Below the pieces are notes generated by a model. The model was given only the letters and a program-made list of their open reading frames with translations. It did no database searches and was not told the DNA's origin. A stretch of DNA of 64,000 nt from Desulfatibacillum alkenivorans DSM 16219. GTDB taxonomy: Bacteria; Desulfobacterota; Desulfobacteria; Desulfobacterales; Desulfatibacillaceae. Shown here one piece after another: positions 465-15,173 of this stretch (position 1 is the stretch's first letter; each line of letters begins with the position of its first letter). The stretch is taken from the NCBI RefSeq assembly GCF_900142135.1, contig NZ_FQZU01000036.1, positions 1-64,000 of the forward strand, written 5' to 3'. Both the position numbers and the translations under genes were made by a program.

Positions 465-1307
465 TCACATTACCCAATCAATAGCATACTCCCAAAGTTT
501 TTTTAGGCCTTCAACAGGTTTAGTTTTGATGGTTTCTAGAGCATCCGTAACCTGATCTCGCTTCTTCTTAAATGCTTCTGCTATTGTTTCATCAGGATCA
601 TCAATGTCCTGCCCCAGAGGCAACAACCCCATCAAATTCTTTATATGTCCCAAGGAGACTTCACCATCTGCTTCACACCAACCTTCAGTAATCTGTTGCG
701 TGCCTCTTATCGTTAAGCCAGGCATTTTAAGTCCTAAATTATATCCCGCAGCAAGGGTCTGAAACATCGAGAGAGGCCAACCCAAACCAGCACCTGCTGA
801 CACAACACCTATCGATATGTCAGCGACCCCCTCGCAACCAGCTTTCACTCCTCTCACAAAATTTATAATACCTACCGCAGTTTTTGTAACATTCAAAAGC
901 CCATAAGGATCAACCAAACCAATCGGATTTTTTGAGGCATAGGAATAAAGATTAAGACCTCCCTCTATCCCAATCGGATCCGTTTTCAGATAATGCCCTG
1001 TTTCTGGGTCGTAATAACGGAAAAGGTTATAATGAAGCCCCGTTTCAGCTTCAAAATACTGCCCGGGAAACCGTAGATTATTTTCGATGGTAGAGCCTAT
1101 TTCCACCTCGGCTTCGCCGAATGCATGGTAGACTGCTGACCAAACCACGGCGCCGTTGGAGGCGATGAGCTTCTGGGGCGTTCCCAGATGATCGTTTTGG
1201 TAATAATAATACTCCGAATCCCGGACCATGAAAAGGGGATTTGTGGTCCAGGTGGAATTAGGCTTGTATCCATAAGACTTTATTAAAGTCCCTTCAGCCG
1301 TATTCAA
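465..1307 (-). CDS. 5'-truncated Rhs repeat-associated core protein with variable C-terminal tail
   Basis: The 280-residue frame carries the last YD-repeat-like segments (for example YYYYQNDHLGTPQKLI) and the Rhs core signature: RYYDPETGHYLKTDPIG, then NLYSYASKNP and VDPYGL. Full Rhs proteins are usually over 1000 residues, so the shell is missing. After PYGL comes a tail of about 145 residues, with a glycine-rich hydrophobic stretch and a charged end. This is where Rhs toxins sit, but I do not recognise the toxin family. The only start is a TTG inside the 69-bp repeat, and the same frame is closed by a stop within that repeat, so repeat insertion or recombination removed the 5' part. It is either an orphan Rhs tip or a pseudogene. 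The following membrane gene is one base away. Confidence 0.75.
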   Translation of the reverse strand: MNTAEGTLIKSYGYKPNSTWTTNPLFMVRDSEYYYYQNDHLGTPQKLIASNGAVVWSAVYHAFGEAEVEIGSTIENNLRFPGQYFEAETGLHYNLFRYYDPETGHYLKTDPIGIEGGLNLYSYASKNPIGLVDPYGLLNVTKTAVGIINFVRGVKAGCEGVADISIGVVSAGAGLGWPLSMFQTLAAGYNLGLKMPGLTIRGTQQITEGWCEADGEVSLGHIKNLMGLLPLGQDIDDPDETIAEAFKKKRDQVTDALETIKTKPVEGLKKLWEYAIDWVM

Positions 1308-1816: not shown

Positions 1817-3091
1817 TCATTTGGCGGCAATATGCGCGGCCAGGCGTTTGCCCAGGCTGGCCAGGGTGTAGGAAGGCGGCACGCCCCAGGCTTCGGGGAT
1901 GACCGAGCAATCGCACACGAACAGGTTTTCTATGCGGGTCATGAGGTTGGCGTCCACCACGTCTCCTATCTTGGCCGTGCCGCCGGGATGTCCGGCGATG
2001 TACCAGGTTTTGAAGCAATCCACGGCGCCCGCCCCTTTCAGGATCTTTTTTGCGATCCCGTACCCCTTTCTTAAACGCCCCCAATCCGCTTTGCCCAGGT
2101 TTTTCATGACCCCGCCCCGGTCCGTCAGACGGCCGCCCAAGTCGTCCCGGATTTTCACCATAATGCCCAACACCTTTTTATGGGCCAAAACCTGATCGAA
2201 CCGCATCATTTGGGCTGTAAAGCCCATGTACACCGAGGGATGCACGGAAAGGTCGGTCAGCATGATTCCCTCGTCCTCAAAATGCACGCCCGCGGTCATG
2301 GGAACCTCGCCGCCGCCCACGGAATCCCCGGTCACGCCAAAGGCCATCACCAGGGGATCCACGAAAAAGTCGAAGCCCGCCTCTTTTATGCCCGAGCGGC
2401 GGAGAATGATAGGCGTTCCCAAGCCTCCGGCGCCCAAAACCACCATGGGCGCAGAAATCTTGCGCTCCCGGCCCTTATGCCGGAAGACGACGCCTTCGGC
2501 CCGGCCGTTTTTGACGATCACCCGGCGAACCCGGGCGCGATCCAGCAGTTGGGCGCCGTTGCCAACCGCATCGTGGGCGAAATTGCGCGCGGTCCATTTG
2601 GCGCCGTAGGGGCAGCCTGTATAGCACTTGTAGCAATCCAGGCGGCATTTATCCTGATAGATGAACTTGCGGATTTTCTTCCAATCGTATCCCAGGGAGC
2701 GGGCCGAGTCGGTCAAACGCCGGACGCCTTCTCCCGTCAGGGAGTCTTTCAAGGGAGCGCAGGGAATATCGTCAAGGACCTCCGCCGCCTCTTGGGAGAC
2801 GTCCACTCCGTACCGTTCAAGCATTGCAACAGGAGGGTCGAACGCAGTGGCGCAATACAAGGACGTGCTGCCCCCCACGGTGGTCGCCCGGCCGACGATC
2901 AATCCCTGGGGCGTGACAAAGACGTTCTTCCCGGGCGCGCCGATCATGGAAAGGCTCTGAACCTGGGAGCCGTTAAAAGGCTCCCCGCCTCCCCATTCCA
3001 GCATGAGCACCCTGGCGCCTTTGGCGCTGAGTCCCCGGGCCGTGGAAGCGCCGCCCGGCCCCGTTCCGACGATGATGGCGTCGTATTGCAT
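1817..3091 (-). CDS. GMC-family FAD oxidoreductase with four-cysteine insert
   Basis: A flavoprotein of the glucose-methanol-choline oxidoreductase family, about 424 residues. The N-terminus has the FAD-binding Rossmann motif VGTGPGGAS (residues 8-16). A GMC C-terminal signature lies near the end (AGHPGGTAKIGD, then a DCSVIPEAWGVPPSYT segment). The start at 3091 is preferred over upstream ATGs because GGAGGA lies six bases before it. Residues 149-160 carry C-x3-C-x2-C-x3-C (within CRLDCYKCYTGCPYGAK), which could bind metal or be structural. The substrate cannot be read. The TauE/SafE gene lies about 110 bp upstream on the same strand, so the two may be cotranscribed. Confidence 0.85.
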   Translation of the reverse strand: MQYDAIIVGTGPGGASTARGLSAKGARVLMLEWGGGEPFNGSQVQSLSMIGAPGKNVFVTPQGLIVGRATTVGGSTSLYCATAFDPPVAMLERYGVDVSQEAAEVLDDIPCAPLKDSLTGEGVRRLTDSARSLGYDWKKIRKFIYQDKCRLDCYKCYTGCPYGAKWTARNFAHDAVGNGAQLLDRARVRRVIVKNGRAEGVVFRHKGRERKISAPMVVLGAGGLGTPIILRRSGIKEAGFDFFVDPLVMAFGVTGDSVGGGEVPMTAGVHFEDEGIMLTDLSVHPSVYMGFTAQMMRFDQVLAHKKVLGIMVKIRDDLGGRLTDRGGVMKNLGKADWGRLRKGYGIAKKILKGAGAVDCFKTWYIAGHPGGTAKIGDVVDANLMTRIENLFVCDCSVIPEAWGVPPSYTLASLGKRLAAHIAAK

Positions 3092-3200
3092 GGACATTCC
3101 TCCGTTCGAGGCCTTTATTCTACGGTTGGTATAAAAAAGGATAATGCAACGGCTGCTGGAATGCAAGAAAATTCGAAATCAGCCGTGTACTAAGAATGGA

Positions 3201-4091
3201 TCAGAAAAAGAAATTCAAAATGTACTTTCCGGCGACGAACAACACGCAAAAGCACAGAACCATTTTAATGGTTCTTGGAGCAAAATACTTCTGGCAGCGG
3301 GCGCCCATATAGATGCCGGCCAGGCCTCCCAGGCCGAACAACAGCCCCAGGCCAATGTCCGGGGCGACGGAAACGCCTGGATAGTATCTTGCCAGAAAGC
3401 TGTAAAAGGCGACTCCCGCAATGGACGTGGCGAAGGTGCCCATAAGCGCCGCACCGGCCACCGTGTAGACGGGCAAGCCGAATATGGCCACCATGAACGG
3501 CGCGATAATGGAGCCTCCGCCGATGCCGTATATGCCCCCGATAATCCCGACAATAAAGCACAGCAGATAAATTTTGAGGGTGGATACGGAATAGGAGTCC
3601 TGGTCAAATTCAAAGGAGATGGTGGACATGGAGAATTTCGCCTGTCCCACGGAGGGGCGATTTTCTGCATTAGCCGCCATGCCCTTGCCCTTGCTTCCCT
3701 TGAACACGTCCAATACCAGGCGATATCCAAGATATAAAAGCACTATTCCGGCGAAAAACTTGAAATTTTTGGGATCAGGAAGCCATTGCACCCGGACCCA
3801 GGCGCCGATAAACACGCCGGGAAGCGTGCCGATCACCACGGCCCAGGCCAGAGGCCAAAGCATGCGCTGCTCCCTGATGAACCGGTAAATCCCTCCCGGG
3901 ATGGCGACAATGTTAAACAGTTGGTTTGTAGCGCTGACGGACGGGGACGAGTACCCCAGCACGCTCACTTGAAAGGGAAGGAGCATGAATGCGCCTGACA
4001 CCCCGCCCATGGAGGTGAAAAAGGACACGGCGAACGCCACCAGGGGCGGGACCAGGGGATGGACGTTAATATCTGCAACGGGAAAATACAT
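3201..4091 (-). CDS. Sulfite exporter TauE/SafE family membrane permease
   Basis: A 296-residue polytopic inner-membrane protein of the TauE/SafE (DUF81) family, whose members move sulfite, sulfonates or related anions. Two homologous hydrophobic halves are visible. The N-terminal half has SFFTSMGGVSGAFMLLPFQ and the C-terminal half has IVGIIGGIYGIGGGSIIAPF, the glycine-rich repeats typical of the family. They are separated by a hydrophilic loop (residues about 120-155). AGGAG precedes the ATG. A role in sulfur-compound export would suit a sulfate reducer, but the substrate is not determined by sequence. The promoter must lie in the divergent region shared with the crotonase gene. Confidence 0.85.
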   Translation of the reverse strand: MYFPVADINVHPLVPPLVAFAVSFFTSMGGVSGAFMLLPFQVSVLGYSSPSVSATNQLFNIVAIPGGIYRFIREQRMLWPLAWAVVIGTLPGVFIGAWVRVQWLPDPKNFKFFAGIVLLYLGYRLVLDVFKGSKGKGMAANAENRPSVGQAKFSMSTISFEFDQDSYSVSTLKIYLLCFIVGIIGGIYGIGGGSIIAPFMVAIFGLPVYTVAGAALMGTFATSIAGVAFYSFLARYYPGVSVAPDIGLGLLFGLGGLAGIYMGARCQKYFAPRTIKMVLCFCVLFVAGKYILNFFF

Positions 4092-4220
4092 GGCTGCTCC
4101 TGAACGTTAAAAGCTCGGATCCAAGCGCTCGATCGATTTGAAGCATACCCATGCCATATGCTTGCTGATCTTATCTATGCCATATATACGGCTTCCAGCC
4201 AAGTAAAATGCGCCCGGCAC

Positions 4221-4235
4221 TACCACAAGGTGGTA
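4221..4235. promoter_or_regulatory. Perfect inverted repeat TACCAC-3-GTGGTA, possible operator
   Basis: TACCAC and GTGGTA flank a 3-bp centre in the divergent intergenic region between the TauE/SafE gene and the crotonase operon. A regulator-binding site is the natural reading, but no regulator gene is adjacent, so the factor is unknown. Confidence 0.4.
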
Positions 4236-4361
4236 TACATAATTCAGGCTGCAGGAAGTCTCTTGCGCCCTTAAACCGCCCGTGATACTTTACCTGATCT
4301 CCGGGGCGTCCGACAAACGTCCCGATGCGGATCGTTTTTTACCATAACAAGGAGAACCTTT

Positions 4362-5135
4362 ATGCAGGTGCTTGTAGAAAAAAACGGACCGGTCTTTACG
4401 GTAGTCATCAACCGGCCTGACAAAAAAAACGCCGTGGACGGCCCCACCGCCCAACTTCTTGCAGACGCATTTCGAGAATTCGACGCAGACGACTCCGCCA
4501 GCGTGGCCGTATTGTGCGGCGCGGACGGGACCTTTTGCTCGGGCGCGGACCTATCGGCGGTGGCGGACCCGGAGGGGGGGCGGCTGCATCAGTTGAACGA
4601 AGACATGAACCAGGACGGCCCCATGGGCCCCAGCCGCATGCTGTTGTCCAAGCCGGTCATTGCAGCGGTTTCCGGCTACGCCGTGGCCGGCGGTCTGGAA
4701 CTGGCCCTGTGGTGCGATTTGCGCGTGATGGAGTCGGACGCCGTATTCGGCGTGTATTGCCGCAGGTACGGAGTGCCCTTGATAGACGGGGGAACCCAGC
4801 GCCTGGCCCGTTTGATAGGCCAGAGCCGGGCTTTGGACATGGTGCTTACCGGACGCAGCATCGGGGCGGAAGAGGCGTTCGCCATGGGTTTGGCCAACCG
4901 GGTGGTCGGCCCGGGATCATCCCGTCAGGCGGCCGAGGAGTTGGCCGCGCGCATTTCCAAATTTCCCCAGACTTGCATGCGAAGCGACCGCATGGCCCTG
5001 CTAAAAGGCTTTAACATGGATTTTGACAAAGCCATGGAAATGGAATTTCAAATGGGCCTGAACGTGATTCGAAGCGGAGAAACCGTGTCAGGCGCCCAAC
5101 GGTTCGTGGCCGGCCAGGATCGGGAAAAGCCCTGA
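4362..5135 (+). CDS. Enoyl-CoA hydratase/isomerase (crotonase) family protein
   Basis: A 257-residue crotonase-fold protein starting at an ATG with AAGGAGA just upstream. The oxyanion-hole region GTFCSGADLSAV and the motif GYAVAGGLELALWCD are present. The glutamate in GGLELA corresponds to the first catalytic Glu of classical hydratase (rat E144). The second catalytic Glu (E164, in QPEILLG) is replaced by cysteine in FGVYCRRYGVPLIDGGTQRL. Such RRYGVPLIDGGT crotonases form a common subfamily whose reactions are mostly untested. Plain enoyl-CoA hydration is therefore not assured. It is the first gene of a tight operon: larE follows after 16 bp. Confidence 0.85.
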   Translation: MQVLVEKNGPVFTVVINRPDKKNAVDGPTAQLLADAFREFDADDSASVAVLCGADGTFCSGADLSAVADPEGGRLHQLNEDMNQDGPMGPSRMLLSKPVIAAVSGYAVAGGLELALWCDLRVMESDAVFGVYCRRYGVPLIDGGTQRLARLIGQSRALDMVLTGRSIGAEEAFAMGLANRVVGPGSSRQAAEELAARISKFPQTCMRSDRMALLKGFNMDFDKAMEMEFQMGLNVIRSGETVSGAQRFVAGQDREKP

Positions 5136-5151
5136 GCTTATTATAATATTT

Positions 5152-5991
5152 ATGGAAGCCGCAAAACCCCATAGCCCCATGCCCCCGAATCTGGAATCCA
5201 AGGTGCAGCAAGTCCGGGACATGCTGGCCGCCCAAAAGTCCGTGCTCGTGGCTTTTTCCGGCGGCGTGGATTCCAGTCTGCTCTTAGCCCTGGCCCAACA
5301 GGCCCTGGGAAACAAAACCGCCGCAGGCACGGTGGACTCGCCCCTGCTTCCGCAGTGCGAAAAACAGGAAGCCGCCCTTCTTGCGCAACAGCTTGGAATC
5401 AAACATCATATTATTAAAGCAGGCGAGATGGAGTCCCGGGAATTCAGGGCCAACCCAAAAAACCGGTGCTATATTTGCAAAGGACTTCATATGCGGGCTC
5501 TGATGGAGCTTGCAAAATCGCTGGGGCTTGCTAAAGTCGCCCACGGAGCGAACACGGACGACTATTCGGATTACCGCCCCGGCCTCCAGGCCGCCCGGGA
5601 GTTGGGCGTTTTATCTCCCCTGGCGGACGCGGGAATGACTAAGCAGGAAATCAGGGACGCCTCCAAAGTTCTTGGGCTGAAAACCTGGGACAAGCCGTCC
5701 ATGGCTTGCCTTGCCTCCCGGATTCCTTACGGCAGCGAAGTGACTGCGGAAAAACTGGCGGCCATTGAAAAGGCCGAGGATTTTTTACGCAGCCAGGGAT
5801 TCAAGCAGTTTCGGGTGCGCCATCACGGCGAAATCGCCCGCATTGAAGTGGATGAGGAAGACTTTGAAAGAATTTTGCTCAAGCCGCTCCGCCAGGCCCT
5901 TTTAAAGGAGTTGGAAGGCTTGGGTTTTTCTTATGTAAGCCTGGATCTGTCAGGATATAAAACCGGCAACCTTAATAAAGGGATTGTTTAA
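5152..5991 (+). CDS. larE: LarE-type ATP-dependent sulfur transferase (PP-loop)
   Basis: A 279-residue PP-loop ATP pyrophosphatase of the LarE family, which adds sulfur to the carboxylates of the pyridinium precursor of the nickel-pincer cofactor of lactate racemase. The PP-loop SGGVDSS is at residues 36-42. C107 and C110 (RCYICK) and C187 (PSMACLASR, the position of the sacrificial Cys in Lactobacillus LarE) make a three-cysteine set. In other bacteria this set is linked to [4Fe-4S]-dependent, catalytic rather than sacrificial, sulfur transfer. No larA, larB or larC lies in the window. Its neighbours are a crotonase and a YcaO protein, so it may serve another acceptor. A start at 5179 is also possible; neither has a strong Shine-Dalgarno. 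Confidence 0.85.
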   Translation: MEAAKPHSPMPPNLESKVQQVRDMLAAQKSVLVAFSGGVDSSLLLALAQQALGNKTAAGTVDSPLLPQCEKQEAALLAQQLGIKHHIIKAGEMESREFRANPKNRCYICKGLHMRALMELAKSLGLAKVAHGANTDDYSDYRPGLQAARELGVLSPLADAGMTKQEIRDASKVLGLKTWDKPSMACLASRIPYGSEVTAEKLAAIEKAEDFLRSQGFKQFRVRHHGEIARIEVDEEDFERILLKPLRQALLKELEGLGFSYVSLDLSGYKTGNLNKGIV

Positions 5992-6033
5992 TGCCGCACC
6001 CTGCGGCCAAGCGGTCCGAAGAAGTTGAAAGAC

Positions 6034-7758
6034 ATGCCAAAAATAGAACTTAAAGACGCTATCAAGACGCAAAACCAAGATCAGGACAAGGTCATCACGC
6101 CGGAGGAAACGTTGGAACGATTCCGGGAAAGGCTAGCCCAGGTGGACCTGGACATCCTGGAGAAAACCGTGCGCGTGGACAACGGCCGCCTGGACATCCC
6201 GGTTTTTATGAGCATGTGCGGCGGCGACGCCCGGGCGCTCACCGGAAACCGGAAGCAAATGGGCAAGGGGGGAAACCCGGCCCAGGCCGAAGCCAGCGCG
6301 GTCATGGAGTTGGCCGAACGCTTCAGCTTATATGCTTTTTCCAACAATCCGGGCAATTTTGTGGTGGACACCCAGTTGAACCTGCGGGGCCGGGCCATGG
6401 CACCCCATTTAATCGCCCAGTCCGTCAATGACGACTCCGAGGATCTGGAAAAGGCCCTGGGGCTGTTCTCCCGCTATCCCCAAAGATGGTGCCTGGGCGC
6501 CAATCTCACCACCGGCCAGCAGGTGATGGTTCCCTTTGACTGGTTTTTCTCCATCAACGAGTTCAATGGAACTTCGGCCGGCAACGTGACGGAAGAGGCC
6601 TTGTGCCAGGGAATCAGCGAAGTGGTGGAGCGCCATGTTTGCGCCCGGGTTTCCAGGGAATCCATTCCATGCCCCCTGATCCGCAGGGACAGCATTACGG
6701 ATCCCATGGCCCTGGAGCTTATCCGGAAATTCGATGATAACGGGGTGGAGCTATTCCTTGTGGACCTGACGCTGGACATGGGAATTCCCACGGTCGGGGC
6801 TTTGGCCTACGATCCGGCAACCATGGGCGAAAGCAGCGAAATAGTCTGGACCGCCGGAACCGCGCCCAACCCGCAAAAGGCCCTGTGCCGCGCCATTACC
6901 GAAGTGGCGCAGCTGGCCGGGGATTTCAACTCCGGCGCCAACTACCTTGCCAGCGGCCTGCCCAAGCCGAAATCTCTGGAAGAACTTGATTTTATCCTAA
7001 AATCCGGCCTGGAAACCCGAATTCAGGACATGCCCGACCTGTCCAACGACAATATCCGCCTGGAAGTGGAGGCCCTGGCTGCGGCCCTGGAGCCCAAGAA
7101 CATGGAGGTCATAGCCATTGAGACCACCCATCCCGGCCTGGGCATCCCGGCTTTTTACAGCATTATTCCCGGCGCTCATTTCAGGGAAAGGGCCAAACGC
7201 AACCGGGTGGGCCTGTTCCTCTCAAAGCTCATCTCGGAAAACGAACCGCCCCACGAGGCCATGTCCTGGCTGCTGAACATGGACGCCGCCCTGCCCGGCC
7301 GGTATTATTTGATTTTTAATATCGGCGTGCAATACATGGCCCTGGACGATCCGGAAACCGCCCTGACCTGCTTTAAAAAGGCCATGGAGTTCGACCCGGA
7401 GCCTGAAGACGCCCCCAGCATCCTGGTTTATATGGGAGTCGCCTTAAAGGACATGGGCCGCTATCAAGAAGCTCTCGGCATCCTGAAAAAAGCCGAAGCC
7501 ATGGACCCGGACCGCACGGACTGTCACAACCTTATGGGCTTTTGCTATTTCAGCCTCAGGCGGCACGAAGAAGCCATCGCCAGCTTTCAGAAAGTCATAG
7601 ACCTGGATCCGGGCTCGGCCATCGACTACGCCAATATCGCTTCCAATTACAGGGATATGGGCGAAACGGAAATGGCCATCCAATACTACAAGCAGGCTTT
7701 GGCCCTGGATCCCTCCATTGATTTTGCCAGAGCCAACCTGGAGCGTCTGGCAAGCTGA
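6034..7758 (+). CDS. YcaO-domain protein with C-terminal TPR repeats
   Basis: About 574 residues. YcaO enzymes use ATP to activate peptide-backbone amides for cyclodehydration or thioamidation. The three ATP/Mg motifs can be seen: SAVMELAERF (about 88-97), QGISEVVERH (about 192-201) and RAITEVAQL (about 286-294). From about residue 425 to the end come tetratricopeptide repeats (for example YMGVALKDMGRYQEALGIL and ALALDPSIDFARANLE) in place of the proline-rich tail of azoline-forming YcaOs. No precursor peptide, TfuA or radical-SAM partner is adjacent. LarE ends 42 bp upstream, so a LarE-supplied sulfur step is conceivable. An in-frame TTG at 6025 is an alternative start. A strong hairpin follows. 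Confidence 0.85.
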   Translation: MPKIELKDAIKTQNQDQDKVITPEETLERFRERLAQVDLDILEKTVRVDNGRLDIPVFMSMCGGDARALTGNRKQMGKGGNPAQAEASAVMELAERFSLYAFSNNPGNFVVDTQLNLRGRAMAPHLIAQSVNDDSEDLEKALGLFSRYPQRWCLGANLTTGQQVMVPFDWFFSINEFNGTSAGNVTEEALCQGISEVVERHVCARVSRESIPCPLIRRDSITDPMALELIRKFDDNGVELFLVDLTLDMGIPTVGALAYDPATMGESSEIVWTAGTAPNPQKALCRAITEVAQLAGDFNSGANYLASGLPKPKSLEELDFILKSGLETRIQDMPDLSNDNIRLEVEALAAALEPKNMEVIAIETTHPGLGIPAFYSIIPGAHFRERAKRNRVGLFLSKLISENEPPHEAMSWLLNMDAALPGRYYLIFNIGVQYMALDDPETALTCFKKAMEFDPEPEDAPSILVYMGVALKDMGRYQEALGILKKAEAMDPDRTDCHNLMGFCYFSLRRHEEAIASFQKVIDLDPGSAIDYANIASNYRDMGETEMAIQYYKQALALDPSIDFARANLERLAS

Positions 7759-7768
7759 CAGACCCAAA

Positions 7769-7798
7769 ACGCCTGTCCGGGGCCGCCCGGACAGGCGT
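7769..7798. terminator. Bidirectional hairpin terminator between YcaO and DUF362 genes
   Basis: A perfect 12-bp stem (ACGCCTGTCCGG and its complement) with a 6-base loop lies between two convergent genes. Read on the minus strand it is followed by TTTTGGG. On the plus strand the downstream tract is only AT-rich. Confidence 0.7.
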
Positions 7799-7855
7799 CA
7801 AATATTCGTCTCAATGTCATTGATTTGACAACCGTCAATCCCTCAATCTTAGTCC

Positions 7856-9148
7856 CTAGGCTTTCCCCAGCACCCGGTTTTTAAAGATTTGAAAGCCCTT
7901 CACGATAGAGTTCCAGATGAACAGCACCGCGTCCCGCGGGTCGAACATGGGGCTCGGCAGCTTAAACACGTAAGGGACCTTGATCATAAGATCCCGGACT
8001 CCTATGGGGCAGCCTTTGATCCTGTATACCTTTTGCGCCTCCAGCTTGCCCGTCACCTTGGCGCAGGAGCCAATAAGCATGACCGGGCCGTCCGGGACGA
8101 TCACGTCGCCCTCATACACCCCGCACACAATGGCGCCGGGTTTTGCCTGTTTCAAGCTGCCGGGGGTGCGCTTTTCGATGGTTCCCAGGCATCCTTTCAA
8201 ACCGCCTTCGCAGCCGCCGTCGCAGAGCATGCCCGTGTCCCAGGCGTTACCGGAGTAAAACTTGATGGGCGTATCCAGTTCGCTAAGAACCTGGAACAGG
8301 CTGTTCCTGCCCTTGGGCCGGGCCTTGAGTTCTTCCAAATCCGCGTCGCCCGAAACATCGATATCGTCAATATTCAAGGAGCCGTAGCCGCGTTCCTCAG
8401 CGATTTTCAGGTGCACCACGTCATGGGGGTCGTAGCCCATAATGTGAGCGGCGACCACGTCGGCCGCCAGGGGGTTGTCCGCAAAAATCAGCAGGCCCAG
8501 CCTCACCGGATAAGGGGCGGATTCAAAGCCGTAAGTAATGTCAATGGCGTCCCCGACTACTAGGTCCGGGTATCCGGGTTCCAGAAGGTCCACGATTTTT
8601 TCGTGAATGCGGTGGTCGTGATAAAGCATCCGCTCCTTGTGGACCAGCAGGCCGATGTTCAGCTTTAATGCGTGGGTGATGGACGCAAAAATATGGTACT
8701 TGAGCTTGGGCATCCAGACTTTGACGTCCGCCTCGGCGATGTATTTGGAAAGCAGCATCTCCTTATGCCATTTGGCTTTGGAGAGCTTTGTCTTAATGAG
8801 CGGATGCTCGTTCAGGTCCAGCAGGGTTATTCCTTCCTTTTTCGCCATGTCAAAATAGCCGGACTCTTTAAAAAACAAGCGGGAGGGAATTCCGAATCCC
8901 CCGGATTCTCCAATCACCAGGCTTTCCGGCTGATCCTTGCGGATTACTTCGGCCATGGCCGCCGCCAGCTGGGGATGCGTGAAAGAATTGTGGATATATT
9001 TTTTGTTAGCTGTCACCACATTAGGTTTTATAAAGACCTTGCCCTGAAACCGAAAGCCCAGTTCCTGCACGGTTTCCTTTATAATCCCCCCCATAAGATC
9101 CCGATTGTAGTCGGCGCAGGACCTTAGAATAACCCTCGGTTTTTGCAT
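7856..9148 (-). CDS. DUF362 domain-containing protein
   Basis: About 430 residues. The DUF362 signature is visible near the N-terminus (KVFIKPNVVTANK and a VIGESGGFG motif) and continues to about residue 260. A cysteine-rich stretch, CDGGCEGGLKGC, follows at about 320-331, with further cysteines after it. DUF362 proteins often occur with ferredoxin-like clusters in anaerobes, and their reaction is unknown. The start at 9148 is preferred because GGAGG lies just upstream; the longer frame would add 39 unlikely residues. It is monocistronic, convergent with the YcaO operon and divergent from the CHASE2 kinase. Confidence 0.8.
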   Translation of the reverse strand: MQKPRVILRSCADYNRDLMGGIIKETVQELGFRFQGKVFIKPNVVTANKKYIHNSFTHPQLAAAMAEVIRKDQPESLVIGESGGFGIPSRLFFKESGYFDMAKKEGITLLDLNEHPLIKTKLSKAKWHKEMLLSKYIAEADVKVWMPKLKYHIFASITHALKLNIGLLVHKERMLYHDHRIHEKIVDLLEPGYPDLVVGDAIDITYGFESAPYPVRLGLLIFADNPLAADVVAAHIMGYDPHDVVHLKIAEERGYGSLNIDDIDVSGDADLEELKARPKGRNSLFQVLSELDTPIKFYSGNAWDTGMLCDGGCEGGLKGCLGTIEKRTPGSLKQAKPGAIVCGVYEGDVIVPDGPVMLIGSCAKVTGKLEAQKVYRIKGCPIGVRDLMIKVPYVFKLPSPMFDPRDAVLFIWNSIVKGFQIFKNRVLGKA

Positions 9149-9450
9149 GAAATTTTCCTCCAGGATGGTATAGAACGTACTGATGCAATATATCATCAGG
9201 ATAGTGGAATGACAAGCCTTTGGGCTTCGGTATTTCCGTCCTGCGCTGACAATCCCTGACTTCAAGCAAAGATATAAAGGAGTTCAGGACAATCTTCCGG
9301 CCCCAAATGCTTGACTCATGAAATTTTTCAGGGTAAACTTACGTACTTACGTCCAGAACAACCCAATTGGCGAAAATGTGAAGTTAAACACTCAACGCTG
9401 TTCAGCCCAGAATGCTGTTTTTGTGCGCTTAATCCGGAGGAATTATACTA

Positions 9451-12015
9451 ATGGGCGTCCTTAGAAAGCACCCCGCTGTTTTTCTCGGTCTTTTCATCAT
9501 GCTGCTTTTTTTTGTTCTTAACGCTGTACGCGTGGAGTTTTTAGACGCTCTGGACAATAAGTTGTACGACATTGCCATGAATATTCGCGGCGATTTTGAA
9601 GCGCCCAGCGACGTGGTCCTGGTGGAGGTTGACGAAGAATCCATCAAGCGGCTCGGCCGCTGGCCCTGGCCCCGGACGATCCTGGCCGAGGGCATTGACA
9701 TTATCGGCCAGGGCCAGCCCAAGGTTATCGGCCTGAATGTTATTTTGTCCGAAGCCCAGACAACGGACAGCGTTGAAATATTGGAAGCTCTCAAAGAGAT
9801 GTTCTCCACGGCCTTCGGGGACGTGCAAGACCCGGAGCTTCAGGAAAGGGCCGGCGTTTTCATGCAGTCCATGAACGAGGCCCAGCAGGCTCTGGATTTT
9901 GACGGCGCCTTGGCTTCAGCCATGGATATGGCCGGGAATGTGGTGCTGCCCGTCTACTATTCCATGTCCGACGCGGTTCCGCCTCCTGATGAGCCTAATG
10001 AGGCGCTGTATCCTCTGGCCCTGTCCCTGGAAATTCCCGACGGAACCCTGGTCCCTTACCCCGCTTCGGAAATCATTCTTCCCATAGACCAATTTCTTTA
10101 CGCCTGCATAGGCATTGGCCATATCAACGTCAGCCCGGACCCGGACGGAGTGGTTCGGCGGGAAGTCCTTTACTTTAACGGCGGCGGGGTGAACGAAGTG
10201 CTGCCCATCCCCTCCTATACGGTCAGCCTGCTTTGGCATTACCTTGGCGCAGGCCAGGACGAGGCCACGGCGGCTTTGGGCTACGGCCTCAGGATCAAAG
10301 GACGCGAAATACCCACCCTGGCCGACGGCTCCATCATGGTCAGCTACAAGGGCCCCCCGGGAGCGTTCCAGTCCTACTCGTTTTTTGAAGTCGCCAACGG
10401 CTCGGTCAAACCCGCCGTGTTTAAAAACAAACTGGTCATCCTGACCATCACGGCCCCCGGCATTACGGACCTTTTATCCACGCCCACAGGGGATATGACT
10501 CCCGGCGAATTTTCCGCCAACTCCATCTGGACCATGCTGAATAATGACTTTATTCAACAGCCGCCCTGGACGGGCACGGCCCAGTTGGCGTTCATCCTGG
10601 TCATCGGCTTGCTCAGCGCCCTGGTGCTGCCCAGGATCAAAGCCCTGTTCGCCGCGCTCATCTTTATCGTGCTTCTTTTCGGCCTTGCCGGCGGCAGCTT
10701 TTACATGTTGACGGCCAGCGGCGTGTGGATGCCGGTCATGTACGCCATCATCCAGCTGATTCTCAGCTATATCGGCGCGGTGACCATCCAGTACTTTGTC
10801 AGTGAAACCGGCATGGAAAAAGCCAAGGGCGAGTCCGCCGAAACCAACCGCATGCTGGGCCTTTCCTTCCAGAACCAGGGCATGCTGGACATGGCCTTTG
10901 ACAAATTCCGGCGGGTTCCCGTGGACGACGAAGTCAAAGACCTTTTGTACAACCTGGCCCTGGACTTTGAGCGCAAAAGACAGTTCAACAAGGCCGCCAG
11001 CGTGTATGAATACATTGAAGAGCATGACCAGAAGTTTAAAGACGTCGCCCAAAGAAAAACCAAGCTCATGCAGGCCAGCGAAACCATGGTATTCGGTCCC
11101 GGCATTTTGGGAGGCGGCGGGGTAAGCGACACCCTGATCTCCGAAGGCTCGGACACCAAACCCACTTTGGGCCGTTACGAAGTCAGCAAGATGCTCGGCA
11201 AGGGCGCCATGGGCATCGTGTACCTGGGCAAGGATCCCCGGATCAACCGCACCACGGCTATTAAGACCGTCCGCTTCTCCGACGATTTCCAGGAAGAGGA
11301 AGCCGCAAAGATGAAGGAAAAGTTCTTCCGGGAGGCGGAAAGCGCAGGCACCTTGTCCCACCCCAATATCGTGACCATATACGATGCGGGCGAGGAGCAG
11401 GATCTGGCCTACATCGCCATGGAGTTTTTGGAAGGCGGGGACCTGGAGGACCATATCAAGCCGGACAAACTCCTGCCCATGCGCAAGGTCATCGGCCACA
11501 TGGCTGACATCTGCGACGCGTTGGACTACGCCCACTCCAAGGGCATCGTCCATCGGGACATCAAGCCCGCAAACATCATGCTTTTAAAAACCGGCGTGTG
11601 TAAAATTACGGACTTCGGCATCGCCCGCATCACGGCCACGTCCCAGACCCAGACGGGCGTTGTCAAAGGCACGCCTTACTATATGAGTCCCGAGCAAATC
11701 GCTGGACAAAAGGTGGACGGCAGGTCCGACATCTTTTCCGTGGGCGTTATGACCTATCAACTGCTCACGGGCAAACTGCCCTTTCACGGCGATTCCGTGG
11801 CGGCATTGATGCACCAGATTATGAATGTCGCCCATCCCGACCCCAGGCAGTTCAACCCCAAGATTCCCAAGCCCTTGGCGGCGATCATTAACAAGGCCCT
11901 GGAAAAGGATCGGGATAAGCGCTATCAAAAAGCCGGACAGATGGCATCCCACCTTCGTCAACTTGGGCAGAGAATAGACGCCATGGCGGCCCAAAAGAAG
12001 GAAGGAGGGGCGTAG
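9451..12015 (+). CDS. CHASE2-domain transmembrane Ser/Thr protein kinase
   Basis: 854 residues. An N-terminal membrane segment (about 9-26) is followed by an extracytoplasmic CHASE2 sensor (about 30-360, beginning NKLYDIAMNIRG and VVLVEVDEESIKRLGRWPWPR). Three membrane helices (about 370-445) and a short TPR-like linker lead to an active-looking Hanks-type kinase from about 573. The kinase has LGKGAMGIVYLGK, AIKTV lysine, HRDIKPANIM (about 697), TDFGIA (about 720) and GTPYYMSPEQ. It probably senses an envelope signal and phosphorylates cytoplasmic partners. The PP2C phosphatase and FHA protein that follow on the same strand are the expected opposing and reading modules. The ribosome site GGAGG lies upstream of the ATG. 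Confidence 0.9.
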   Translation: MGVLRKHPAVFLGLFIMLLFFVLNAVRVEFLDALDNKLYDIAMNIRGDFEAPSDVVLVEVDEESIKRLGRWPWPRTILAEGIDIIGQGQPKVIGLNVILSEAQTTDSVEILEALKEMFSTAFGDVQDPELQERAGVFMQSMNEAQQALDFDGALASAMDMAGNVVLPVYYSMSDAVPPPDEPNEALYPLALSLEIPDGTLVPYPASEIILPIDQFLYACIGIGHINVSPDPDGVVRREVLYFNGGGVNEVLPIPSYTVSLLWHYLGAGQDEATAALGYGLRIKGREIPTLADGSIMVSYKGPPGAFQSYSFFEVANGSVKPAVFKNKLVILTITAPGITDLLSTPTGDMTPGEFSANSIWTMLNNDFIQQPPWTGTAQLAFILVIGLLSALVLPRIKALFAALIFIVLLFGLAGGSFYMLTASGVWMPVMYAIIQLILSYIGAVTIQYFVSETGMEKAKGESAETNRMLGLSFQNQGMLDMAFDKFRRVPVDDEVKDLLYNLALDFERKRQFNKAASVYEYIEEHDQKFKDVAQRKTKLMQASETMVFGPGILGGGGVSDTLISEGSDTKPTLGRYEVSKMLGKGAMGIVYLGKDPRINRTTAIKTVRFSDDFQEEEAAKMKEKFFREAESAGTLSHPNIVTIYDAGEEQDLAYIAMEFLEGGDLEDHIKPDKLLPMRKVIGHMADICDALDYAHSKGIVHRDIKPANIMLLKTGVCKITDFGIARITATSQTQTGVVKGTPYYMSPEQIAGQKVDGRSDIFSVGVMTYQLLTGKLPFHGDSVAALMHQIMNVAHPDPRQFNPKIPKPLAAIINKALEKDRDKRYQKAGQMASHLRQLGQRIDAMAAQKKEGGA

Positions 12016-12049
12016 ACGCCCGAATTTTGTGTTTTTTTCCTGAGTCTTG

Positions 12050-12078
12050 TTGAATAAACAGGGAAAATCAAGTATAGT
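12050..12078 (+). promoter_or_regulatory. Candidate sigma-70 promoter before PP2C gene
   Basis: TTGAAT (12050-12055), a 17-bp spacer and TATAGT (12073-12078) lie between the kinase stop and the phosphatase start. The phosphatase may therefore have its own promoter besides read-through from the kinase. Confidence 0.45.
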
Positions 12079-12145
12079 ACACTATCCATATTGTTGGGAT
12101 ATCAGACGCAAAAAAGGCGCAGCCCAGGAAGGCGGAAATGAATAT

Positions 12146-12961
12146 ATGAGCTTGGTAGTGGAGTCAGCCGGCAAAACTGACGTGGGCCAGAAGCGAAAAG
12201 GCAATGAAGACAGCCTTTTTCTGGACGACGCGTTAGGCTTGTACGTTGTTGCCGACGGAATGGGGGGACACCTTGCCGGGGAAGTGGCCAGCCGAATGGT
12301 TGTAGACACCATGGCCGACTATGTTCGCAGAGCCGCCAACGCCGGAAACGACCGGGAGGATATGGCGATTCATGAACCCGCCTACTCCATGGAAGCCAAC
12401 CGCCTTTTGTCTTCGGTGTTCCTGGCCAACCAGGTTGTTTACGAAGTCTCCACCCAAAAGAAGGAATACCGCGGCATGGGGTCCACGGTCAGCGGAATCT
12501 ACCTGACCCAGGACACCTTTGTAGCCGTCAACGTGGGGGACAGCCCCATATATCTTATTCACGACGGTCAAATAGAAACCATCTCCGTGCCTCATACGGT
12601 CATGGACGAACAAAGAGCCATAGACCCGGAAGCCGCCGATCAGCTTGACGGCAAGTTTGAGCACATGCTCACCCGGGCCATGGGCGTTCATGCAGACGTG
12701 GAGCCCTCTGTCTCCGAAATCCAGTGCTTCGGCGGGGATATTCTGGTAGTCGGATCGGACGGCCTTACCAACAAGGTCAACGACCGGGAAATCCTGGAAG
12801 TCGTCACAACTCATAAAGCAGACGCAGCATGCTCTTTCCTGGTGGATATGGCAAACGACCGGGGCGGAGAAGACAATATTACGGTCATCGTCCTGAAAAT
12901 CAAAAAGGTCAAGCATGGCAACGGCATTTTGTCCATGGTGACCAATTTCTTCAGGCGGTAG
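12146..12961 (+). CDS. PP2C-family Ser/Thr protein phosphatase
   Basis: About 271 residues from the ATG at 12146, where the conserved family N-terminus (SAGKTDVGQKRKGNEDS) begins; the longer frame from 12047 starts at TTG and adds nothing conserved. The metal-binding motifs are present: the D of DVG, VVADGMGGH, GSDGLTNKV and GGEDNITVIV. Such PPM phosphatases reverse phosphorylation by Hanks-type kinases. It sits between the CHASE2 kinase and the FHA protein, so it is probably the dedicated phosphatase of this module. It has no membrane segment and should be cytoplasmic. Confidence 0.9.
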   Translation: MSLVVESAGKTDVGQKRKGNEDSLFLDDALGLYVVADGMGGHLAGEVASRMVVDTMADYVRRAANAGNDREDMAIHEPAYSMEANRLLSSVFLANQVVYEVSTQKKEYRGMGSTVSGIYLTQDTFVAVNVGDSPIYLIHDGQIETISVPHTVMDEQRAIDPEAADQLDGKFEHMLTRAMGVHADVEPSVSEIQCFGGDILVVGSDGLTNKVNDREILEVVTTHKADAACSFLVDMANDRGGEDNITVIVLKIKKVKHGNGILSMVTNFFRR

Positions 12962-13046
12962 CTAAACGGGAATTATGTATCAGGCTTTGCCTGAAGGGGG
13001 TTCGCCAGCCCCAATAGATAAACAATAATAAAGAGGGTACAGAAAA

Positions 13047-13757
13047 ATGCCGACTTTGACGCTGAAGTTCAAGGACAATATCATCGCCGAATATCCCGTC
13101 AAAACAGGGCAAAGCCTCACCATCGGCAGATTGAGCGACAACAATGTGGTGGTGGAAAACCTTGCTGTCAGCGGGCATCACGCCAAACTGGACTCCGTAG
13201 GAGACGGATACCTGCTGACCGACCTGCAAAGTAAAAACCATACCTTTGTCAATGCCCAGATGATTACCTCGCATTGGCTTAAGCACGGGGATGTTGTGAC
13301 CGTTGGAAAGCACACCCTGTTGTTCACTGACCAGGAAGGCGCCGCCAAGGTTCCCGAAGGCGCCGGCGGCGATATGGATAAAACCATGGTCATGGACACC
13401 AGCGATCACCGGCAGATGGTCGCCAAAAGCGCTCCGGCTGAATCCGCCGCCGCCCCGGCCACAGCCATGCTTTCGTATCTGTCCGGCGGAGAAGGCGAAA
13501 TTCCTTTGAGCAAAAAACTGTTTAAAATCGGCAAGGCTGCTGCCAACGACATTGTGGTGGGCGGGCTGCTCATGGGACAGACGGCGGCTACGATCAGCCA
13601 ACGGCCCAACGGCTATTTCATTGCCTTCGTCGGCGGCCGGGTTAAACCCAAAGTCAACGGTGAAGTTGTGAAAGATACTGTAAAACTTAACGATTTTGAC
13701 ACCATAGAAGTGGGCTCCGCCAAGATGCAGTTTCTGGCCGGAAAGAGCAAAAAATAA
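13047..13757 (+). CDS. Double FHA-domain protein
   Basis: 236 residues. The N-terminal FHA domain (about 5-95) has LTIGRLSDNNVVVENLAVSG, HHAKL and a KNHTFVN segment, the loops that bind phosphothreonine. The second half (about 140-232) repeats the fold more weakly (LFKIGKAAANDIVVGG, then VNGEVVKDTVKLNDFDTIEVG). It lacks the clear SxxH loop, so it may not bind phosphopeptide. An alanine/proline-rich linker with several possible phospho-acceptors joins them. It is a likely reader or substrate of the adjacent kinases. GAGGG precedes the ATG, and a terminator-like hairpin follows at 13797. Confidence 0.85.
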   Translation: MPTLTLKFKDNIIAEYPVKTGQSLTIGRLSDNNVVVENLAVSGHHAKLDSVGDGYLLTDLQSKNHTFVNAQMITSHWLKHGDVVTVGKHTLLFTDQEGAAKVPEGAGGDMDKTMVMDTSDHRQMVAKSAPAESAAAPATAMLSYLSGGEGEIPLSKKLFKIGKAAANDIVVGGLLMGQTAATISQRPNGYFIAFVGGRVKPKVNGEVVKDTVKLNDFDTIEVGSAKMQFLAGKSKK

Positions 13758-13796
13758 AAAGCCGGTTTTTTGAACCCAAATATTTTTTGATTATCT

Positions 13797-13842
13797 GCGC
13801 CCGAAACGCCCCTGCTTTATGCGGGCGACTCGGGCGCTTTTG
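13797..13842 (+). terminator. Hairpin terminator after the FHA gene
   Basis: GCGCCCGA (13797-13804) pairs with TCGGGCGC (13830-13837) around an inner GCCC/GGGC pairing and is followed by TTTTGG. It would separate the phosphatase-FHA transcript from the second kinase gene. Confidence 0.55.
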
Positions 13843-13874
13843 GTTGGGCTTCTTGCAAAACACTGGATCTATTT

Positions 13875-15173
13875 ATGTCTACCAACAGCATGGAAGAACG
13901 GCTTTTGGCCTTGTCCGACCTTTCCAAAGTCGGACGTTATGAGATTGTGCGCAAACTGGGCCAAGGCGGCGCCAGTTTGGTTTTTTTGGGACGAGATCCC
14001 TACATCAAAAGGCTGGTGGCTCTCAAACTGGCGCCCCTGGCGTCCTCCGGAGTAAGCGACAAGTTTTTCAAGGAAATCCAATCCACCGGCAGGATGACTC
14101 ACCCGAACATAGTGGCTGTGTATGACGCCGGCCTTGCCAGGGATTATTGCTACATAGCCATGGAGTATGTAGACGGCCCCCAGCTTTCTGAGTATTGCAG
14201 GCCGGACAGCCTGATGCCCCTGGCCAACGCCGTGGAGTGCATCTACAAAGTCGTACGCGCCATAGGGTTCGCCCATGAAAAAGGGATTGTGCACCGGGAC
14301 CTGAAACCTTCCAATATCATCATGGAAGATACAAAGACTCCGAAAATCAGCGACTTCGGCATTGCCGTGGTCACGGAGGAAACCGCCCCCTTGGAGCAGG
14401 CGGGAACGCCCAGTTACATGTCTCCCGAGCAGTTGAAGGACGAAACGTGCTGCCCTCAAAGCGATATATACGCCCTTGGGTGCGTGCTTTATGAACTGCT
14501 TACAGGGCAAAAGGCCTTTGATGGGGACAGCTTTTTTTCCATCATGTACAAGGTGATCAATGAAAAGCCGGTAGGGATTCGCACCCTGAATCCTGAACTG
14601 CCGCCTATTTTGGAAAAAATTGTCAGCAAGGCAATGGCCAAGGACAAGCTGTACCGCTACTCCTCCTGCGAAGAGTTCGCCTTTGAGCTTAAAGTCGCCC
14701 TCCGCGGCCTGAGCGCCCCGGCGAAACTGGCCAAAAACAATGACGTCATTGAGTATGTGCAAAGCGTTTCGTTTTTCGCCGAGTTTTCCAAAATTCATGT
14801 TCGCGAACTTATGCGCGCCAGTGAGATGGTTCAGGTGAAAGACGGCGAATGCATTGTTGAGGAAGGCGAGATCGACGATAGCTTTTACATTGTTCTTTCC
14901 GGGGCCGCCAAGGTGGTCCGCAGGGGAAATAAAGTAGCAATCATCGGGGTTGGGGAGTGCTTCGGCGAAATGGCTTATATTGGAGGAAGGCCCCGGAGCG
15001 CCTCTGTTATTTCGGAAGGCGACTGCATCCTGATGAAAATCAACGGAGCCCTTCTGGACAGAGCGCCGGCCAAGATTCAGCTGCTTTTCTTCAAGCAATT
15101 CGCACTGACCCTGGTCAACCGTTTGTCCCGGAGCAGCTTTGATCCCAAAGCATGTCTTGAGTCGGTTGTATAG
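13875..15173 (+). CDS. Ser/Thr protein kinase fused to cyclic-nucleotide-binding-like domain
   Basis: 432 residues with no membrane segment. A Hanks-type kinase domain (about 21-285) shows LGQGGASLVFLGR, ALKLA lysine, HRDLKPSNII, SDFGIAVV and GTPSYMSPEQ. A cNMP-binding fold (about 300-415) follows, with GECIVEEGEIDDSFYIVLSG and a phosphate-cassette-like FGEMAYIGGRPRSASV. The E and R of the cassette are kept, so ligand binding is plausible. This order makes a soluble kinase that could be gated by cAMP or cGMP, as in eukaryotic PKG but with the domains reversed. The upstream Shine-Dalgarno is weak. The next gene encodes a repeat protein that may be its partner. Confidence 0.88.
   Translation: MSTNSMEERLLALSDLSKVGRYEIVRKLGQGGASLVFLGRDPYIKRLVALKLAPLASSGVSDKFFKEIQSTGRMTHPNIVAVYDAGLARDYCYIAMEYVDGPQLSEYCRPDSLMPLANAVECIYKVVRAIGFAHEKGIVHRDLKPSNIIMEDTKTPKISDFGIAVVTEETAPLEQAGTPSYMSPEQLKDETCCPQSDIYALGCVLYELLTGQKAFDGDSFFSIMYKVINEKPVGIRTLNPELPPILEKIVSKAMAKDKLYRYSSCEEFAFELKVALRGLSAPAKLAKNNDVIEYVQSVSFFAEFSKIHVRELMRASEMVQVKDGECIVEEGEIDDSFYIVLSGAAKVVRRGNKVAIIGVGECFGEMAYIGGRPRSASVISEGDCILMKINGALLDRAPAKIQLLFFKQFALTLVNRLSRSSFDPKACLESVV

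Follow-up and report, generated by a model that had tools for sequence, protein, structure and literature searches.

How YcaO enzymes that form thioamides without TfuA obtain their sulfur has yet to be settled, as was noted for E. coli in 2026 (PMC13063428, in its available text). One answer can be tested directly on an operon that joins a sulfur insertase to the widespread YcaO-TPR protein of sulfate reducers. Such an operon lies in the window, a stretch of 64,000 nucleotides from Desulfatibacillum alkenivorans DSM 16219, and the initial annotation had proposed that its LarE replaces TfuA. We find that this sulfate reducer's sole LarE gene sits in a tight operon with a widespread YcaO, with the remaining nickel-pincer nucleotide (NPN) pathway encoded elsewhere in the genome, so that the conserved pairing is real but falls short of demonstrating a new system of sulfur delivery. 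With moderate confidence, we read the operon as joining the NPN sulfur insertase to a YcaO-TPR protein that probably thioamidates a conserved protein with free sulfide, the two activities being mostly separate.

Three consecutive open reading frames on the + strand encode the proteins listed below, and profile matches to all three bear out the row of genes as annotated. The gaps of 16 and 42 bp given earlier are also correct, the second when YcaO-TPR begins at ATG 6034, which lies near the start of its relatives; an alternative TTG start at 6025 would give 577 aa instead of 574.

4362 to 5135, + strand: crotonase / enoyl-CoA hydratase family protein, 257 aa, the first gene (NF006108)
5152 to 5991, + strand: LarE, ATP-dependent sulfur transferase of nickel-pincer nucleotide synthesis, 279 aa (TIGR00268)
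6034 to 7758, + strand: YcaO domain followed by C-terminal TPR repeats, 574 aa (PF02624 and several TPR models)
7769 to 7798, + strand: hairpin with a 13-bp stem and no T-run, between convergent genes, a possible terminator found by folding

The spacing and conservation of the genes suggest a single transcript for the whole operon. The shared terminator that had been claimed for it is weakly confirmed: the hairpin is there (z -4.64 in the fold of 7750-7830), but it has no T-run and was not called by the terminator scan. The gap upstream of the operon holds only short open reading frames, of 58 aa or less.

The YcaO domain scores 236.5 bits against PF02624 (cut-off 25.7) and carries the ATP motif S184-x6-E191-x3-Q195-x3-E199-xx-E202-R203 (numbered from the TTG start), in agreement with the YcaO motif Sx6-7Ex3Qx3ExxER quoted in PMC7774982. 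Its AlphaFold2 model (pLDDT 89.7) has M. jannaschii YcaO as top structural match (6peu/6pe3; Z 38.4, rmsd 2.7 over 343 residues, 23% identity), and the best NCBIfam model, matched over residues 22-385, is that of McrA-glycine thioamidation, TIGR03266, with 124.1 bits against a cut-off of 365 (131.9 to 139.4 bits for three relatives). The E. coli-type YcaO model NF040716 gives 51.5 bits (cut-off 700) and the SagD-family azoline RiPP model TIGR03604 gives 100.9 bits (cut-off 219.25); all curated YcaO equivalog cut-offs are missed. The earlier assignment to the thioamidation type is thus plausible from the nearest model and fold, both of methanogen thioamidation enzymes, but is held back by a score far below the TIGR03266 cut-off. 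Scores so far under the cut-offs of both families that thioamidate proteins count against the reading we favour. The pI of the protein, considered as a mark of a uL16-type YcaO, may do so too: it is 4.74 (median 5.35 of 108 relatives), whereas E. coli YcaO is reported to have a more acidic 4.4 (PMC13063428, available text).

YcaO-TPR would be an ATP-dependent activator of a backbone amide, most likely thioamidating one conserved intracellular protein. The leading candidate substrate, by analogy with E. coli YcaO, is uL16, which that enzyme thioamidates in vitro with Na2S, ATP and Mg and without TfuA. The TPR tail, which in the initial annotation would recruit the substrate, has a counterpart in E. 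coli YcaO, whose TPR domain is credited with dimerization and perhaps with binding the substrate (both from the available text of PMC13063428). The host uL16 carries the RMGKG loop, whose presence is expected anyway. YcaO-TPR probably draws on the free sulfide that is abundant in a sulfidogen, in which case neither TfuA nor LarE would be needed as an obligatory partner.

It is doubtful that the product is something other than a thioamide, made with another nucleophile or by phosphorylation or adenylation of a small oxyanion; if it were, the sulfur chemistry of LarE would be irrelevant to YcaO-TPR. YcaO enzymes do yield several products (PMC13063428, available text), and the missed equivalog cut-offs agree with such a departure. 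Desulfovibrio has a previously described YcaO-TPR protein, DVU2210: found via the molybdate resistance of a sat mutant, it affects molybdate sensitivity, which its authors would explain by a reaction with molybdate that consumes ATP (PMC7774982). Against another product stand the nearest fold and profile, which are those of the methanogen thioamidation enzymes, and the conservation of the protein, which argues for one conserved substrate.

LarE scores 317.7 bits against TIGR00268 (cut-off 150) and is the only copy over cut-off in this genome. Its PP-loop SGGxDS is present as SGGVDS. The three cysteines pointed out earlier exist, although numbered one too high (C107, C110 and C187 for what are C106, C109 and C186), and their CXXC-C pattern is that of T. 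maritima LarE, where it binds a catalytic [4Fe-4S] cluster (PMC9283937, available text), in support of the catalytic Fe-S type that had been assigned. S189, R221 and R223 align with Ser180, Arg212 and Arg214, which bind the phosphate of P2CMN in L. plantarum LarE (same source, available text), and form a predicted P2CMN site. Both arginines and all three cysteines are kept in 42 of the 42 LarEs examined, whatever the neighbouring gene, and the third P2CMN site is Ser or Thr in every one; we therefore rejected the idea that these cysteines single out a special kind of LarE, LarC-linked LarEs being among the 42.

The rest of the NPN pathway is encoded on three other contigs of the same genome, scattered and in no single operon:

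LarB: contig G000:C42, 89845 to 90468, 301.9 bits (cut-off 175)
LarC: contig G000:C25, 75544 to 76668, 468 bits (TIGR00299 and NF052512 both over cut-off)
LarA homologue: contig G000:C90, NCBIfam NPN isomerase group 22 (NF052515, 448.5 bits, cut-off 400)

The absence of larA, larB and larC noted earlier therefore holds at the locus but not for the genome. The complete lar operon that, according to the initial annotation, would have explained LarE and refuted the proposal exists in substance, as scattered genes: the genome encodes larB, larC and a larA homologue away from the locus. Of the 22 searched genomes with the LarE-YcaO pair, 21 have LarC, and LarB and PF09861 are each over cut-off in 19. 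A weak PF09861 match on contig G000:C32 was rejected as LarA; the best 25 of its 126 NCBIfam matches are ferredoxin-type, with no LarA model among them. LarE would then be the organism's only NPN sulfur insertase, adenylating pyridinium carboxylates and moving sulfide onto them from the three-cysteine [4Fe-4S] cluster, and together with LarB and LarC would make NPN for the group 22 LarA-type isomerase. We infer this chemistry from the L. plantarum and T. maritima enzymes; the genes, motifs and substrate residues are seen here directly. The shared transcript is probably a matter of co-expression of two sulfur-insertion enzymes and not of one pathway.

The pairing itself recurs. LarE lies directly upstream of YcaO-TPR on the same strand in seven of the nine genomes of the window's family, and just upstream of it at 17 of 80 named loci (one of them a remnant, with 12 not judgeable), so that the two genes are not the rare neighbours that would have spoken against a functional link. 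LarE is the commonest neighbour of YcaO-TPR, on the same strand at 23 of 23 loci and with gene overlaps in some; the pairing is held by two YcaO clades, and the flanking genes vary. Neutral chance would not easily produce such a pattern, and the constant strand, the overlaps and the two clades count against a reading of mostly separate activities. Tests on 36 of 109 rows reject the LarE-linked YcaOs as a strict clade (p 3.4e-5) but do not reject them as a clade set against the unlinked rows once L128 and the rows of the second clade are left aside (p 0.095); two independent origins of the pairing are thus not proven. An 825-aa frame at L033/L128 was rejected as a LarE-YcaO fusion, the locus having no LarE match and the first ~245 residues looking, by eye, like an alternate-start extension.

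The crotonase (402.5 bits against NF006108, cut-off 273) was rejected as a core partner. It completes the triple in six of the nine family genomes, that is, in six of the seven with the LarE-YcaO pair, the exception being G148; among the remaining 79 named loci (L043-L121) there is a single distant crotonase match, at L060 with 27% identity. Its linkage is confined to the window's family.

We consider it unlikely that LarE has a second job as a dedicated or dual-use donor, its [4Fe-4S] cluster carrying an extra sulfide to a backbone amide that YcaO has activated in a conserved protein (uL16 is one possibility), in place of ThiS-thiocarboxylate and TfuA. Besides the recurrent pairing amid varied flanks, several observations speak for it. 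LarE and a strong YcaO match tend to occur together across the order's 146 genomes (odds ratio 5, p 0.0015; 12.7 in the 96 better genomes), which counts against our reading because simple co-expression does not predict it. TfuA (PF07812) has no match in the organism's own genome. For T. maritima LarE, the available text of PMC9283937 puts forward a [4Fe-5S] sulfide donor, and that of PMC13063428 names no sulfur carrier for E. coli YcaO. In a tree of 42 LarEs, the LarC-linked ones fall with three others in a group (support 95/88) that has no YcaO-linked member, so the two kinds of LarE may differ, although the YcaO-linked LarEs form no supported clade of their own. This exclusion, together with the lack of help that Na2S gave to T. 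maritima LarE (PMC9283937, available text) and the six of 146 genomes that have LarC without LarE over cut-off, also weighs against the mostly separate activities that we favour.

Other results turn the argument away from a donor role. Of the order's genomes, 13 have a strong YcaO match but no LarE over cut-off, and TfuA is present in only 4 of the 146; among the matches listed, no genome outside the window's family places LarE next to YcaO. LarE keeps its P2CMN residues and follows LarC (counts 111/12/6/17; odds ratio 26, p 4.5e-10) far more tightly than it follows YcaO-TPR, and the genome's full NPN set needs this single LarE. The replacement of TfuA by LarE is accordingly not supported. We found no publication joining YcaO with LarE in one literature collection.

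It is very unlikely that the operon is a nickel-enzyme maturation unit in which the target of YcaO-TPR belongs to the NPN system or is an NPN client. LarE is its operon partner, LarC is present in 21 of the 22 searched genomes with the pair, and the nickel enzyme MCR is a known YcaO substrate in methanogens (PMC5589413, available text); but YcaO-TPR also occurs in genomes without LarE and often without LarC, LarC and YcaO show an association of p 0.15 across the order, and the genes for LarA, LarB and LarC are not among the frequent neighbours of YcaO-TPR. A RiPP pathway acting on a small unannotated precursor peptide nearby is the most improbable reading: YcaO enzymes are frequent in RiPP clusters (PMC13063428, available text), but this one is 49-58% identical across 14 relatives amid varying flanks, YcaO is found in 132 of the 146 genomes, and no small gene recurs among neighbours of at least 70 aa within 6 kb.

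The conserved operon suggests that protein thioamidation may extend past methanogens and Pseudomonadota. With two mostly separate activities, and LarE making the NPN cofactor only, YcaO-TPR is still a widespread enzyme, to which 70 of the phylum's 198 genomes have a full-length match. Were LarE the sulfur carrier after all, sulfate reducers would have a route to thioamides that dispenses with TfuA, and the operon would offer a model for the carrier that is missing for E. coli-type YcaO enzymes.

Among known systems, the YcaO-TfuA thioamidation pair is similar in that a YcaO has a sulfur-related protein as its neighbour, and differs in that TfuA is absent here, LarE being a PP-loop enzyme unrelated to TfuA in family searches. 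The McrA-thioamidating YcaO of methanogens is the best NCBIfam and structural match, but in the window protein the aligned part is followed by a C-terminal TPR domain. E. coli YcaO (NF040716; 4q84-4q86), which acts on uL16, shares the order of a YcaO domain and then a C-terminal TPR domain, the lack of TfuA, an acidic protein, no obvious precursor and a host uL16 with the RMGKG loop; its structural Z of 30.8 is lower than that of the methanogen enzymes, and the available text of PMC13063428 mentions no LarE partner for it. DVU2210 of Desulfovibrio vulgaris Hildenborough, likened here by its published motif and domain order alone, is likewise a YcaO with TPR repeats in a sulfate reducer and has an ATP motif of the same form. 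For LarE, the T. maritima [4Fe-4S] enzyme and the sacrificial L. plantarum enzyme are the closest systems, the window protein having a TIGR00268 score well over cut-off and the SGGxDS PP-loop; the CXXC-C cysteines are those of the T. maritima protein, where L. plantarum LarE has a single sacrificial Cys, and the P2CMN-binding Ser and two Arg are those of the L. plantarum protein. The host genome has LarB, LarC and a LarA homologue, as in NPN biosynthesis elsewhere, but unlike in the T. maritima and L. plantarum systems its larE adjoins ycaO and not larB or larC.

The crotonase, LarE and YcaO-TPR genes belong to known protein families and make up an operon that is real and conserved. The ORF listing bore out the positions given to all three by the initial annotation, and Pfam and NCBIfam profile searches identified them as follows:

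4362-5135 (+), crotonase (NF006108, over cut-off)
5152-5991 (+), LarE (TIGR00268, over cut-off)
6034-7758 (+), YcaO with several TPR repeats

ATG 6034 is probably the best start for the YcaO gene because the starts of its relatives fall nearby, and with this start the intergenic gaps are 16 and 42 bp, as annotated. A scan of 4050-7900 for promoter-like sites found none upstream of the crotonase gene and one within the YcaO gene, versus 2.0 expected, so that spacing and conservation are the whole basis for the term operon. The shared terminator that had been proposed stands as a hairpin (7769-7798) 3' of the YcaO gene, but one lacking a T-run.

Within the family sample (9 genomes, 5 genera), seven genomes have LarE immediately upstream of YcaO-TPR, and six of these seven have the crotonase just upstream of LarE; G149 has no LarE upstream, and G150 has too little upstream sequence on its contig to be judged. 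Genome G109 belongs to the same genus, Desulfatibacillum, and locus L042, with identical LarE-YcaO match figures, was counted as its duplicate. At loci L124 and L125 the end of the crotonase gene overlaps the start of LarE by a few bases. In an evenly sampled set of 146 order genomes, 132 have a YcaO and 123 a LarE over cut-off; comparing place lists by eye, we saw LarE adjoining YcaO only in the four sampled genomes of the window's family, a reading made among the YcaO matches listed, where weak ones are partly missing, and in which contig breaks may hide pairs. We also examined 80 named loci, the best among 446 relatives, scoring linkage as a LarE no more than 1.5 kb upstream on the same strand: LarE was linked in 17, absent in 51 and unjudgeable in 12. 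One of the 17, L059, has a mere remnant judging by its ORFs. There (9457-9968) all that remains of LarE is an 83-aa piece, immediately upstream of an intact YcaO-TPR and next to a 91-aa ORF; LarE seems to have decayed and YcaO to have been retained. At L052 (8732-9312) LarE and YcaO-TPR are separated by two short ORFs of 83 and 111 aa on the same strand.

LarE was the most frequent neighbor of YcaO-TPR in a survey of 88 loci, duplicates included, occurring at 23 loci and always on the same strand (23/23), while the next eight neighbor clusters, which presumably include hisB, hisA, dnaG and rpoD, were all on the opposite strand. On a YcaO tree of 109 rows, duplicates merged, LarE-linked rows fall in the window's family (7) and in a second clade (16) of 28 rows with support 100, whose other members are unlinked (8) or of unknown status (4). 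The genes flanking the pair vary from member to member. Those in the window are:

465-1307 (-), ORF (DPIGIEGGLNLYSYASKNPI) that we take to be the end of an RHS-repeat protein
1817-4091 (-), upstream, GMC-type oxidoreductase and TauE/SafE permease (Pfam/NCBIfam)
7856-9265 (-), convergent to the YcaO gene, DUF362 protein (PF04015, 126 bits; weak NF052623 match, 48 bits against a cut-off of 500)
9451-15173 (+), presumably two serine/threonine kinases, one with a sensor-like N-terminal part, a PP2C-type phosphatase and an FHA-type protein

ORFs related to the oxidoreductase and permease occupy corresponding positions in L042 and L122, where the 9451-15173 run is also partly kept downstream; an ORF cluster related to the DUF362 protein lies downstream of YcaO in L042, L122 and L124.

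Across the genome as a whole, the view of this LarE as an orphan is refuted. The genome (6.47 Mb, completeness 100%) has one LarE over cut-off, LarB on contig 42, LarC on contig 25 and a LarA homologue on contig 90, which is under the Pfam Lar_N cut-off and matches NF052515 (nickel pincer cofactor-dependent isomerase, group 22) at 448.5 bits, cut-off 400, a family also present in G109 and G140. Since the DUF362 model also matches this homologue, barely over cut-off (25.2 of 24), it and the window's DUF362 protein may be distant kin. Among 22 pair-bearing genomes (7 of the family and 15 from the named loci, excluding L042 and the L059 remnant), 21 have LarC, 19 have a LarB above its cut-off, and 19 a PF09861 match above its own, some barely. 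Some relatives (G096, G069, G037 and G054; loci L132-L135 and L141-L144) have two LarE genes over cut-off, one of them near larC in G096 and G069.

Co-occurrence was assessed in the 146 order genomes, phylogeny uncorrected.

Co-occurrence of LarE with LarC and with strong YcaO ("strong" leaves out 12 genomes whose best match was judged by score and length to be of non-TPR type)
LarE and LarC: both 111, LarE only 12, LarC only 6, neither 17; odds ratio 26, p 4.5e-10
LarE and strong YcaO: both 107, LarE only 16, YcaO only 13, neither 10; odds ratio 5, p 0.0015

The association with strong YcaO is thus below that with LarC, and LarE against any YcaO was not significant (p 0.24). In a good-quality subset of 96 genomes chosen by eye (97 by computed count), the odds ratios, likewise uncorrected, were 135 and 12.7. 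Strong YcaO stands without a LarE over cut-off in 13 genomes; six of them are of good quality, and one, G097, has a LarE fragment.

Of the 42 LarEs compared, the family contributed 7 and the second clade 16, among them the one at L104, which lies ~4.5 kb away; another 8 have larC nearby, and the other 11 fit none of these groups. All 42 have the three cysteines, as well as the two arginines that bind P2CMN, the LarE substrate, with Ser or Thr at the third P2CMN site, so YcaO-linked LarEs are not distinguished by these residues. On the LarE tree the LarC-linked proteins and three others form a group (support 95/88), and all YcaO-linked LarEs fall outside it.

Given the observed gene content, motifs, conservation and co-occurrence, we suggest that LarE would make the nickel-pincer nucleotide, that YcaO-TPR would thioamidate a conserved protein with free sulfide as sulfur source, and that the shared operon would provide co-expression. 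The initial annotation instead had LarE possibly replacing TfuA, and a cluster-bearing LarE could possibly pass sulfide to YcaO, a coupling favored by the recurrence of the pairing and by the LarE-YcaO co-occurrence, the weaker of the two associations. However, YcaO-TPR is also found without LarE, and LarE tracks LarC, so this replacement is not supported, although it still offers a clean experiment. TfuA itself occurs in 4 of the 146 order genomes, adjoining a shorter YcaO frame (432-447 aa) in three of them.

The window's YcaO-TPR is 49-58% identical to 14 relatives selected from the order, and 84 of 198 genomes of the phylum match its alignment at 1e-30 (by manual count, 70 with both domains, 11 with the TPR part only and 3 with the YcaO part only). 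One published YcaO-TPR protein is D. vulgaris DVU2210, reported as found via molybdate resistance of a sat mutant and of unknown role, with sulfate respired by the deletion strain (PMC7774982), and listed among mutated genes of an evolved syntrophic line (PMC8319347). For thioamidation, work from 2026 established uL16 as a target of E. coli YcaO; its authors describe a system with no TfuA and sulfur delivery unknown, and place some thioamide-forming YcaOs in high-sulfide habitats (PMC13063428). IscS together with cysteine reportedly charged T. maritima LarE, whereas Na2S did not (PMC9283937).

The window genome's own uL16 carries the RMGKG loop, which is expected and proves little. The ATP motif of the window's YcaO is intact and its AlphaFold2 model is good (pLDDT 89.7, pTM 0.86). 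Among profiles the McrA-thioamidation family ranks first, though at 124 bits it misses its cut-off of 365, and the E. coli YcaO family scores far below its own (51.5 of 700); three relatives show a similar pattern. Re-examination of Foldseek's matches, short of a full search, placed M. jannaschii YcaO as the best structural match of the YcaO domain (Z 38.4), followed by a LynD-type heterocyclase and M. kandleri YcaO (34 to 35) and E. coli YcaO (30.8).
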